Of a DNA stretch of 64,000 nt, positions 2,322 to 61,320 are shown in pieces. Origin of the DNA: Meiothermus cerbereus DSM 11376. GTDB lineage: Bacteria; Deinococcota; Deinococci; Deinococcales; Thermaceae. The notes beneath the pieces were generated by a model, which ran no database searches, was not told the DNA's origin, and saw only the letters and a program-made list of their open reading frames with translations. Both the position numbers and the translations under genes were made by a program. The stretch spans positions 1 through 64,000 of the forward strand of contig NZ_JHVI01000020.1 in NCBI RefSeq assembly GCF_000620065.1, given 5' to 3'. How positions within the stretch are numbered: position 1 is the first letter of the stretch; the number at the start of each line of letters is the position of its first letter.

Positions 2322-4130
2322 ATGAACGCAATAAAGTGGCAGGTGTTCAACCATTACGGTAAGGCTTTGCTATTGCTGGCAGGGCTACTGATTTTTGCGG
2401 CCTGTGGTACTTCCTCGAGCCCTCAAGCAGAAGGAAAACAGGGTAGTGGGGTCAATGCACAGGCGGCAACCTCGGTGCTAATCCTCTATCCCGATGGCCC
2501 GGGTACTTTTTCTGAATCCAATGGGGTCTCGCTGCAAAGAAAGTCCAAAATTGGCTCTGTGCAGCTTAAACCGGGCCTCGCTTACGATAAATCTACCCGC
2601 TCAAAAAAGGGCGGTAAGGACAAGCCTGGCCAGACCGGAGCGCAATCTATGGGCGAGGTTCAAACCCAGGCCTACTCTTACCCCGATGCAGCCCAGATTT
2701 ATGCGATCATGCTGACCAACCTGCTGGGTCGCTACGCTGATGTGGCCGTAACCCGTAAGGCGGTTTCGGCCTATACAGCCGGAGAAGCCAACCAGTACTA
2801 CCGCACATTTTACATCGGTAGCACCTACGAAGACCCGATTCCCACCGCCCTGATCAGCGATATTATGGGCGGCGCTAGGGTAACCTGGCTCAACTACAAC
2901 ATTTGGAGGCTGGACAACCCGGCCATGGGGGCCAGCCTGAGCCAGCTGGGCCTGCGCTATGTAGCTTTGTATCCAGAGTATCAGCCGTCCGAGTTCTCGG
3001 TGGGCTTTAACAGGATTGACTACCGGGGCTATACCTTCAAGAAGTACATCCCGGGCTTGCTGGAAGTTCCCATCGAGATGATGGAAGTGGCCCCTGAGTC
3101 CCCCAGCGTGGTGGTACATGCCTGGGCCAAGAACAGCGCAGGGCGGCAGATTCCATACGCGCTGCAAAGCGGTAATTTCTGGTACATTGCCGACAACCCC
3201 TTTACGTATATTCACGAGCAGGATCGCTACCTGATTTTTGCAGATCTGATTGCGCCCATGATGGGGCGTGATGTTACCTGTACCCCCAGGGCCCTGGCCC
3301 GCATGGAAGATTTGAGCCCGAACGATGAAGGCGCTGACCTCAAACGGATGCTGGATAGCATTAATCGGGTAGGGATTCCGTTCCTGGCTACTGCAATACC
3401 CCTGTATGTGGACAACAATACTGTGCCAGTCACCCAGATCCGATGGACGCAAAACAGTGGGGCCCTGACTCAACTTCGCCGCATACCCAGAATTCGTGGC
3501 CGGATATTCCAGCACGGCTACACCCATCAGTTTGAAAACCTCAAGAATCCCTCAGGTATTTCAGGTGATGACTGGGAGTTCTGGCGGGTTGAGCTCGATG
3601 CCAATGGTAACCGCATTACCAGCTCACCCATTCCAGGCATGACAGCCAGCAGTGCGCTACAGCGCATTCAGACCGGCCGCTCGATCCTGGTGGGTCTTAG
3701 CACCTCGACCGCCAACCTTACACCGGTGGGCTGGACAACGCCCCATTACGAGGCCGACCCTGGTTACTATGCCACGTTTAACCAGGTCTATAGCCGGGTT
3801 ATGGAGCGGCGCATTTACCGAGTGGGCACGGTAATTGCAGGGCAGTTCTTCCCCTACCCTGTGCGGGATGTGAACGGCACCCTGATGCTCCCTGAAAACC
3901 TGGGTAGTGTACAGCCCAACTACCTGCTGCCCATGGTAGAAGAGGCCGCTCGAGCCAACCGGGTGCTGCGCTGTCCCTGGGCGGGCCACTTCTTCCATGC
4001 CTACACCATTGACCCTACCTATGACGGCCCCAATGCCTACTCGGCAGCTCAATTTGAGGGTTTTTTGCGCTATGTGCGGAATACCCTGGGTTATACCTAT
4101 GTAGACCCCACTACCGTAACCACACAGTAG
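2322..4130 (+). CDS. DUF2334 polysaccharide deacetylase lipoprotein
   Basis: Predicted secreted lipoprotein (602 aa): a hydrophobic stretch at 14-27 ends in a lipobox with Cys28. The C-terminal half carries a DUF2334-type deacetylase fold: MEDLSP with Asp330 as the likely catalytic/metal acid, and QHGYTHQ with His398 and His402 as the metal-binding HxxxH. Such domains remove N-acetyl groups from surface polysaccharides. The N-terminal half (about 30-320) has no family I recognise and may be a carbohydrate-binding or docking region; residues 80-110 are Lys/Gly-rich and probably disordered. AAAGGAG precedes the start. It begins 42 bases after the glycosyltransferase, so it probably modifies that enzyme's product outside the membrane. 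Domain assignment is good; substrate is inferred. Confidence 0.8.
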   Translation: MNAIKWQVFNHYGKALLLLAGLLIFAACGTSSSPQAEGKQGSGVNAQAATSVLILYPDGPGTFSESNGVSLQRKSKIGSVQLKPGLAYDKSTRSKKGGKDKPGQTGAQSMGEVQTQAYSYPDAAQIYAIMLTNLLGRYADVAVTRKAVSAYTAGEANQYYRTFYIGSTYEDPIPTALISDIMGGARVTWLNYNIWRLDNPAMGASLSQLGLRYVALYPEYQPSEFSVGFNRIDYRGYTFKKYIPGLLEVPIEMMEVAPESPSVVVHAWAKNSAGRQIPYALQSGNFWYIADNPFTYIHEQDRYLIFADLIAPMMGRDVTCTPRALARMEDLSPNDEGADLKRMLDSINRVGIPFLATAIPLYVDNNTVPVTQIRWTQNSGALTQLRRIPRIRGRIFQHGYTHQFENLKNPSGISGDDWEFWRVELDANGNRITSSPIPGMTASSALQRIQTGRSILVGLSTSTANLTPVGWTTPHYEADPGYYATFNQVYSRVMERRIYRVGTVIAGQFFPYPVRDVNGTLMLPENLGSVQPNYLLPMVEEAARANRVLRCPWAGHFFHAYTIDPTYDGPNAYSAAQFEGFLRYVRNTLGYTYVDPTTVTTQ

Positions 4131-46765: not shown

Positions 46766-46923
46766 ATACCAGATTCGGTTAGTTCGTCACCGTTCGGTGA
46801 CGAACTAACCCGACCGAAGGGATACGCTTTCTTCGCCGAGCGCAGCGAGGGGTGTGCTCTAGGATTCAAAAAGATAGCCCCTTGATGTTTTTTGTTTGAA
46901 GAGTATCTTTTTGAATCCGGTAT
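46766..46923 (+). repeat. MITE-like element, copy 2 (with insertion)
   Basis: A 158-bp copy with ends ATACCAGATTC and GAATCCGGTAT. Hairpin 1 (46777-46810) has perfect 16-bp arms GGTTAGTTCGTCACCG / CGGTGACGAACTAACC with loop TT; hairpin 2 uses GATTCAAAAAGATA (46863-46876) and its complement (46904-46917). A 31-base segment absent from the other two copies, with its own small inverted repeat (TCGC...GCGA), is inserted after GAAGGGA. Located between rpmE and tdk. Confidence 0.9.
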
Positions 46924-59760: not shown

Positions 59761-60387
59761 ATGTTTTTCTTCGAGCTTCTTGGTAACGACCCCCTGGCCT
59801 ATCTGGTTGCATTTGCCGCAGCCGCTTTTGGCCTGGTTGTACACAACCTGTTTCAAGCCTACCTAGCGGACCGCTACAAGGATGGTGACCCCAGACGCTA
59901 TGGTTTTTTGACTGTGGAACCTAAGGTGCACCTCGATGGCCTGGGCCTGATTTTCCTGGCCCTAATAGGCTTTGGGTTTCCGCGCCTGGTTCCCTGGCGC
60001 CTTTTTGGCGCAAAGGGGGCCCAGACTGCCTTGATGGGGCCGCTGGGCTTTTTTGTGGCTGCTTTTTTCTACATCCTGTTGGGTAGAATTTTGGACAACC
60101 TGGGGCCGGCCACCTCGAGCATCGCACTGGGCTTGCAGGTTGCGGGCTCCTTGATGATTAGCCACGCTGCGGTGTTCTTGTTTCCTGTGCCCCCACTGGA
60201 CGGAGCGCGGGTGGTGTATGCGATTGGTAGCCCAGAGGCAAGACGCTTTATGGATCAGCTACAAAGCTATGGTTTTTTGGGCTTCTTCGTGATTTTTCTG
60301 ATATTGAACCTGAGCGGTATACTGCCAGCCATTCGTGCTGGCCTGAGCGGGTTGCTAAATAGCCTGTTTGCTGCGATTGGACTGTAA
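59761..60387 (+). CDS. Site-2 protease (M50) homologue lacking the HExxH motif
   Basis: Polytopic membrane protein (208 aa) of the M50/site-2 protease family with about five hydrophobic segments. The metal site that should read HExxH is HNLFQ (GLVVHNLFQAY), so the catalytic glutamate and second histidine are gone, while the distal PPLDGARVV (third ligand) is kept. It is therefore predicted inactive as a protease. It is immediately followed by an intact paralogue (zero-base gap) and may form a heterodimer with it or bind substrates. Confidence 0.82.
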   Translation: MFFFELLGNDPLAYLVAFAAAAFGLVVHNLFQAYLADRYKDGDPRRYGFLTVEPKVHLDGLGLIFLALIGFGFPRLVPWRLFGAKGAQTALMGPLGFFVAAFFYILLGRILDNLGPATSSIALGLQVAGSLMISHAAVFLFPVPPLDGARVVYAIGSPEARRFMDQLQSYGFLGFFVIFLILNLSGILPAIRAGLSGLLNSLFAAIGL

Positions 60388-61041
60388 ATGGGCCTCCTGC
60401 CGCTGTTGCAAAGCGACCCACTGGCTTTTGGGCTGGTGGTAGCGATTTTGCTGCTGTCGCTGGCCTTGCATGAATGGGGCCATGCGATTACTGCGCTTTG
60501 GATGGGTGATTCGACCGCCAAAGAGCAGGGCCGTGTAACGCTCAATCCATTCAAACATCTTGACCTTTTGGGTTCAGCCATGATCTTACTGGTGGGCTTT
60601 GGCTGGGCCAGGCCGGTGCCGATCTACCCACCCAATTTCCGACACTACCGGTTAGGGCTTTTTGTGGTCTCTATAGCCGGGATAGTGATCAACCTTTTAA
60701 TCGCCACATTTCTCGCACTGGTGTTGCGCTGGATGCTTGCTTCGGGCTATTTGGAAAATCCCAGCGGCTTTGTGCTGGTGCTGGCCCAGGCTGCAGCGAT
60801 AGCCGCAAGCATTAACCTGACCCTGGCTGTTTTCAATTTACTGCCCATTCCACCCCTGGATGGCTCTAAAATTGTACAGAGTTTTCTACCTTTGCGCTGG
60901 CACCCTTATATTTGGCGCCTGGAAGCTAACCCAACCTATGCAATAGTAGCTATGCTACTGTTGCTTACTGTGCTCCGACAACCATTAAGCAGTTTTCTTG
61001 CTCTGGTGCGGACACGGTTTTTTGATGGTTTTGGCCTGTGA
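60388..61041 (+). CDS. Site-2 protease family zinc metalloprotease
   Basis: Membrane metalloprotease (217 aa) with an intact HEWGH motif (LALHEWGHAITALW) and PPLDGSKIV distal ligand, plus about five hydrophobic segments. Related small M50 proteins cut transmembrane substrates; the target is unknown. Its ATG directly follows the stop codon of the inactive paralogue, so the two are certainly co-translated. Confidence 0.88.
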   Translation: MGLLPLLQSDPLAFGLVVAILLLSLALHEWGHAITALWMGDSTAKEQGRVTLNPFKHLDLLGSAMILLVGFGWARPVPIYPPNFRHYRLGLFVVSIAGIVINLLIATFLALVLRWMLASGYLENPSGFVLVLAQAAAIAASINLTLAVFNLLPIPPLDGSKIVQSFLPLRWHPYIWRLEANPTYAIVAMLLLLTVLRQPLSSFLALVRTRFFDGFGL

Positions 61042-61193
61042 TGTGAGCGAGGCCAAAGCCAATAGGATGCGTACTACGCTTAGGTACAGTAAGCAGCGCT
61101 CATCGGATTTGCGTGGGGCTGGTGAGGGCTTTCGGGAATCTTGCCACGCAATGAAATTTGGCAGGGCTGTTTATTGCCCTGCCGGGTCTTGTT
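61042..61193. other. Gap with terminator-like hairpin after the protease pair
   Basis: No gene is supported. GGCAGGGC-TGTTTATT-GCCCTGCC (61160-61183) is a perfect 8-bp stem that could end the protease transcript, although the T-tract after it is weak. MITE copy 3 follows. Confidence 0.5.
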
Positions 61194-61320
61194 ATACCAG
61201 ATTCGGTTAGTTCGTCACCGAACGGTGACGAACTAACCCGACCGAAGGGAGTGCTCTAGGATTCAAAAAGATAGCCCCTTGATGTTTTTTGTTTGAAGAG
61301 TATCTTTTTGAATCCGGTAT
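61194..61320 (+). repeat. MITE-like element, copy 3
   Basis: A 127-bp copy with ends ATACCAGATTC and GAATCCGGTAT, same orientation as copy 2 but without its 31-base insertion. Hairpin 1 (61205-61238) has perfect 16-bp arms with loop AA (TT in copy 2); hairpin 2 uses GATTCAAAAAGATA (61260-61273) and its complement (61301-61314). Located between the convergent protease and sucD genes. The remaining bases to 61447 show nothing recognisable. Confidence 0.9.

Follow-up and report, generated by a model that had tools for sequence, protein, structure and literature searches.

A catalytically substituted site-2 protease homologue, conserved beside an intact paralogue in Thermaceae and present in related families

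Much work has been done on pseudoproteases of the rhomboid superfamily, and for site-2 proteases (S2Ps) the plant protein EGY3 was the only pseudoprotease named among the literature matches listed. EGY3 is a chloroplast S2P homologue of the thylakoid membrane that lacks HExxH, and it is described as plant-only in the available parts of two papers (PMC9355673, PMC10978774). The replacement of the catalytic glutamate of an S2P has been characterized in SpoIVFB, in which E44Q (the position of Asn29 in protein A below) is inactive and still co-purifies with Pro-sigmaK, and the wild-type and E44Q monomers are virtually superimposable; according to the same excerpts, the wild-type preparation likewise came with uncleaved substrate and neither preparation kept zinc (PMC11486902). 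SpoIVFB is blocked by the membrane proteins BofA and SpoIVFA (excerpts of PMC9042235), and the bacterial rhomboid YqgP acts as a substrate adaptor of FtsH without its own activity, for which an unoccupied active site is required (excerpts of PMC7231995). In PMC11266112, which treats metallopeptidase pseudoenzymes, no mention of M50, site-2, S2P or EGY3 was found, and the accessible sections of a review of bacterial S2Ps (PMC10202637) hold nothing on dead members. Nor was a bacterial S2P pseudoprotease named in any title or abstract opening among the matches listed for open-licence PMC papers; as only the top matches were covered, this is weak evidence of novelty. Dead S2Ps are already known from plants (EGY3), and on this weak evidence a bacterial one appears to be new.

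Two adjacent genes, A and B, are described here from a 64,000-nucleotide stretch of DNA of Meiothermus cerbereus DSM 11376, which as a whole is called the window. Their coordinates and motifs are listed in Table 1. A preliminary description had reported HNLFQ for HExxH with a retained distal LDG in the first protein, HEWGH in the second, and genes abutting without a gap. The ORF translations bear out both motif readings, the first also in the alignment, and the junction reads TAA (60385-60387) followed by ATG (60388). Its wording that the proteins are fused head-to-tail was wrong, and a fused A-B protein was rejected, because a stop codon separates the two ORFs. Shuffled sequences gave a mean of 3.8 terminator-like sites and the real sequence two, so the hairpin 3' of B is a weak terminator candidate.

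Table 1. Features of the A-B locus in the window and positions of the 'C' paralogue at other loci
Feature	Position	Strand	Remark
Gene A, pseudo site-2 protease	59761..60387	+	208 aa, separate ORF, stop TAA
HNLFQ, residues 28-32 of A	59842..59856	+	at the place of HExxH: general-base Glu replaced by Asn, second His ligand by Gln
PVPPLDG, residues 142-148 of A	60184..60204	+	would-be third zinc ligand Asp retained
Gene B, site-2 protease, motifs intact	60388..61041	+	217 aa, ATG directly after the stop of A
HEWGH zinc-binding/catalytic motif, residues 28-32 of B	60469..60483	+	
PIPPLDG, residues 153-159 of B	60844..60864	+	third zinc ligand Asp
Terminator-like hairpin with T-rich tail, 3' of B	61156..61187	+	possible end of A-B transcript (weak)
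'C' paralogue	L195:3882-4505	-	
'C' paralogue	L197:2497-3126	+	
'C' paralogue	L196 about 2854-3576	-	

Against the Pfam model Peptidase_M50 (cut-off 27.2 bits), B scored 48.5 bits and the window's A 14.4 bits, below the cut-off; 30 of 34 A members were matched by the model at E<=1, the best at 2.4e-7. Profiles built from these 34 A members and from 20 B members were aligned by hhalign over 184 columns with 99.9% probability (E 9.6e-35), and HNxxQ aligned onto HExxH. MjS2P of M. jannaschii was matched by the B profile at E 1.4e-9 and by the A profile at 0.0037, the latter also matching SpoIVFB of B. subtilis at about 0.04. By these profile similarities A descends from the S2P (M50) family. Judged from its residues, B is an ordinary S2P member with intact motifs, combining HExxH, LDG and a score above the Pfam cut-off, whereas A has the LDG Asp and lacks the catalytic Glu and the second His ligand of HExxH.

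Conservation was examined in a phylum sample of 111 genomes, in which the phylum-level and order-level searches cover the same set; the sample may not include Deinococcus itself, its species coverage is partial and part of its genomes are incomplete. With A as query, 103 of the 111 genomes were matched and A itself was found in 102; in genome G020 the matched gene was B, truncated at the contig end. In Thermaceae (50 genomes) the A query and the B query each matched all 50, and nine relatives (Meiothermus, including strains from culture collections, or 'Thermaceae bacterium') were 73-93% identical. All 102 A copies with a readable site carry HNxxQ, including 49 of 49 in Thermaceae; three further A rows are pieces without the motif region and stand outside the 102. 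Since 49 same-strand adjacent A-B pairs were also counted in Thermaceae, both the pair and the motif change are conserved there, and the description of a dead paralogue kept beside an active one holds. HExxH in the first gene of relatives, the sign of a strain-specific decay, occurs in 0 of the 102.

Two zinc or catalytic residues are thus lost in every readable A, and the other residues of the former site are kept. In an alignment of 99 A rows (without the fragments from G029, G042 and G077), His28, Asn29, Gln32, Ala36, Gly48, Gly70, Gly93, Pro142, Leu146 and Gly156 are invariant (99/99) and Asp147 of LDG is present in 98; since a level of 97% is attained in no more than 18 of 207 columns, the former site belongs to the least variable parts of A instead of drifting, and this conservation excludes chance for the motif change. 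The sole aligned A with an altered LDG Asp comes from locus L111 (G057), which reads LSG (Asp to Ser) and retains HNxxQ, and the Gly after this Asp is Met (LDM) in eight A, all from family f5. HExxH was present in 67 of the 69 B rows read, the exceptions being one row that is a second fragment (L094) and one truncated at a contig end (L097); the HExxH residues and the LDG Asp are each conserved in 66 of 66 rows of the B alignment, which is without the fragments in G020 and G028 and the later-found B of G055. The B of G028 (L094) is split over two frames, by sequencing error or true loss. Four Asn are invariant in B (N53, N102, N143 and N150), and N29 is the only Asn among the 18 near-invariant columns of A, in which the place of N150 holds Phe or Tyr outside f5 and Asn or His within it. 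The cleft of A is therefore not simply preserved.

A third, more degenerate S2P paralogue ('C', Table 1) was observed in three f5 genomes (G100, G082 and G081); its HExxH region starts with HG or QG and has no second ligand, and its LDG has become LTG or TTG. Inspected by eye, PQQ-type dehydrogenase-like ORFs lie near 'C' at two loci and ABC transporter-like ORFs at two loci.

The loss of ligands in 'C' contrasts with the four ex-site positions of A, which are invariant or nearly so in the phylum sample, and both observations would suit a His-Asn-Gln-Asp site re-built for a non-proteolytic job such as that of a metal-ion sensor or for other chemistry. The Asp is nevertheless Ser in the A of G057, and fixed residues could be structural instead, so that we regard a re-built site of this kind as doubtful. 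It is very improbable that A has remained an active protease with an unusual set of zinc ligands: a metal might in principle be held by His, Gln and Asp, but the water-activating Glu is gone in 102 of 102 A, and the equivalent E44Q alone abolishes SpoIVFB activity (excerpts of PMC11486902). With the Glu lost, A was rejected as an active enzyme, and from its sequence it is near certain to be catalytically inactive.

A pseudogene on its way out is an explanation to which almost no probability can be given. The A gene is split over two frames in L095 (G029) and L096 (G042), that is in 2 of 102 genomes, by sequencing error or real loss, and A was not found in 9 of 111 genomes. Eight of these nine, however, are at most 85% complete (including G020, whose contig ends inside B), and G100, 96% complete, is the only credible loss of A; moreover, the residues are fixed across the phylum sample and median pairwise dN/dS values of A lie between 0.05 and 0.27. 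A decaying gene was accordingly rejected on the ground of conservation.

The dN/dS values were calculated by the Nei-Gojobori method for pairs with dS <1.5 in three hand-picked groups, namely 16 of the 18 genomes of genus g1 (without G017 and G020), 23 of the 27 genomes of g4 (without G028, G029, G033 and G042) and the ten f4 genomes with A. Median values for A and B were 0.051 vs 0.134, 0.145 vs 0.205 and 0.269 vs 0.362, of which only the ranking of A and B is used because the first group is close to saturation in dS. Mean amino-acid identity was also higher for A than for B in each group. In the three groups tested, the dead copy A is more constrained than the active B.

Outside the phylum, A-like proteins were sought by running the A profile on 390 genomes, 279 of which are outside members. 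Thirteen of the best outside places were fetched, and all of them score higher with the B profile; HExxH is present in 12, and the other is a fragment that does not cover the motif region. The S2P of G337 lies nearest to B in the tree, and in the phylum of that genome 36 of 44 genomes were matched and 30 loci were returned, all with HExxH and all preferring the B profile. L167 and L222 being one and the same locus (of G337), the 12 and 30 readable loci amount to 41 distinct ones, all with HExxH and none with an HNxxQ S2P. A DNA motif for HNxxQ with conserved spacing matched 5 of 279 outside genomes vs 82 of 111 inside the phylum (a reversed control motif matched in 2 of 390), and none of the five outside matches was an S2P when judged by eye from the DNA. 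Because the motif finds 82 of the 102 A-bearing genomes (about 80% sensitivity), around a fifth of such genes would be missed elsewhere, and as only a minority of the outside genomes with a profile match were read, there may be rare outside exceptions that escape the motif too. A tblastn search of plasmids with A gave two weak records. No A-like neighbour was seen in the few kilobases fetched at 42 distinct outside loci with a B-like S2P, from which it follows that B-type proteases can do without A.

A tree of 57 rows (25 A, 20 B and 12 outside proteins), read without a root, recovered A as one clade with 100/100 support on a long stem of 1.91 changes per site, and the B branch had support of 83/81. 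The A tree and the B tree both separate family f5, families f2 and f3 together, and families f1 and f4 together; within these groupings the two trees disagree, in part at less well supported branches. Since A forms one clade and both trees separate the family groups, these data fit an A that originated ahead of the divergence of the sampled families and was then inherited largely vertically.

Same-strand adjacent A-B pairs were found in 67 genomes, about two thirds of those bearing A. Of the 49 pairs in Thermaceae, 25 overlap by 4 bases and 15 have zero gap (40 together), counts that rest on start codons picked by script. A without detected B occurs in 34 of the 102 A-bearing genomes, always with HNxxQ unchanged. 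Thirty-three of these belong to family f5, in which A is present in 36 of 39 genomes and B in three (272-299 bits); the next best B-search match scores 108 bits, and all lower-scoring matches above 61 bits lie on A. Completeness is 90% or higher in 23 of these 33 genomes (contamination is 9% in one of them), and two of the 33, G083 and G092, are each assembled as a single contig. The remaining case is G054 of family f3, to which G055, with B on another contig, also belongs. The absence of B rests on profile searches. Direct searches for B covered f1, f3 and f5, and in f2 and f4 only B adjoining A was read; in the five f2 and f4 genomes without A, no match was obtained with the A profile, by which B is detected as well. 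Apart from the contig-end case of G020, no B was seen in the phylum sample in a genome without A.

These patterns bear on whether A is solely a regulatory partner of B, which as part of an obligate heteromer would gate, inhibit or stabilise it. The overlap or zero gap in most A-B pairs, the sharing of a genome with A by every B found in the phylum sample except that of G020, and the same family splits in the A and B trees are what such a partner would show, and S2Ps can be held by membrane partners, a transmembrane segment of BofA occupying the SpoIVFB active site (excerpts of PMC9042235). We nevertheless consider it unlikely, as HNxxQ is unchanged in the 33 f5 genomes and G054 without detected B, and as the B-like S2Ps at 42 outside loci have no A-like neighbour in the kilobases fetched. 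The constant co-occurrence with an active paralogue expected of an iRhom-like protein that is a regulator only is absent from a third of the A-bearing genomes (34/102). Of the regulatory or substrate-binding role suggested in the preliminary description, the part in which A only regulates its neighbour is therefore not supported, the same residues being fixed where B was not detected. Since the same site change is present in all related genomes with a readable A and A is kept in many where B was not found, A probably has a job of its own.

With about an even chance, A is an ancient dead S2P under selection which grips transmembrane helices without cutting them, as an adaptor or holding site for B or others. 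It would have arisen before the sampled families of the phylum diverged and then been held under selection, retaining the S2P membrane fold and the substrate cleft. Transmembrane helices may be bound in this cleft without being cut, which would make A a natural counterpart of the substrate-holding Glu-to-Gln mutants. In genomes with B, presenting helices to B, or gating B, is the probable task of A; in those lacking B, another membrane protease or quality control may be served by A in this way. Structure predictions were too poor to use: AlphaFold gave a mean pLDDT of 53.5 for A alone and 44.7 for A-B read through the stop as one chain, both from nine-row alignments consisting of the window and eight of nine loci (L072, with an odd A N-terminus, was omitted). 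Several observations weigh against an adaptor. The four invariant Asn of B are not mirrored among the near-invariant columns of A, the gene is split in G029 and G042 and missing from G100, and the commonest upstream gene, described below, does not point to membrane proteolysis. Somewhat short of even is the chance we give to a single rebuilding of the zinc site into an invariable His-Asn-Gln-Asp set, in a protein that selection constrains more strongly than B and that serves a conserved B-independent task, as a natural helix trap or a metal-responsive adaptor. If this is true, A would be a pseudo-S2P that fulfils a housekeeping function in bacteria and is carried by the whole phylum.

One gene cluster was found directly upstream of A in 11 of the 17 wider loci (L198-L214) from several families, within 50 bases of A in 10 of the 11 by longest-ORF coordinates. 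The one member scanned has DHH, CBS, PolyA_pol and PolyA_pol_RNAbd domains, and we take it to be a tRNA nucleotidyltransferase-type protein. The recurrence of the same cluster across families suggests an old operon of this gene and A. The link is not universal, as the gene upstream of A in the window is a LysM/M23 peptidase. Downstream, just 3' of B, the window has a perfect inverted repeat at 61205-61238 (16 nt arms, 2 nt between), with a second copy whose core lies at 46782-46805. The palindrome core GTTCGTCACCNNNNGGTGACGAAC has 59 exact copies in the genome of the window and 90 with up to 3 mismatches (reversed control 0), and its exact counts in Thermaceae are patchy, with 93, 49, 18 and 13 in four other genomes, 1 to 5 in four more and none in 41 of 50. 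Flanking sequence is common to both window copies, which points to a dispersed element of the MITE or REP type. Beside the palindrome lies another perfect inverted repeat (61259-61273 and 61301-61315, 15 nt arms, 27 nt apart).

An ancient dead S2P that stands beside an active one, together with lineages in which no active one was detected, provides a ready-made comparison for the function of dead S2Ps. The comparison with iRhoms made in the preliminary description holds as an analogy of role and fails for fold and chemistry, rhomboids being serine proteases with a fold unrelated to that of S2Ps. BofA and SpoIVFA are, to our knowledge, not S2P homologues, whereas A is one. As far as the available excerpts go, iRhoms, Derlins and YqgP resemble the proposed A in that a dead fold holds transmembrane clients for another protease (PMC3149277, PMC7231995), and YqgP differs in being an active protease with a second role. 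Of the M50 S2Ps, MjS2P matches the profiles of both A and B, and SpoIVFB that of A, with corresponding HExxH and LDG positions; they differ from A, all readable copies of which have lost the catalytic Glu and a His ligand. In being an S2P homologue that has lost its catalytic residues and is conserved in its lineage, A is a pseudoprotease of the EGY3 kind. According to excerpts of the EGY3 papers, both lack HExxH, are conserved in a large lineage and coexist with active S2Ps; the two are compared here by the absence of HExxH and not by the replacement residues, EGY3 being a plant protein and A a bacterial one.
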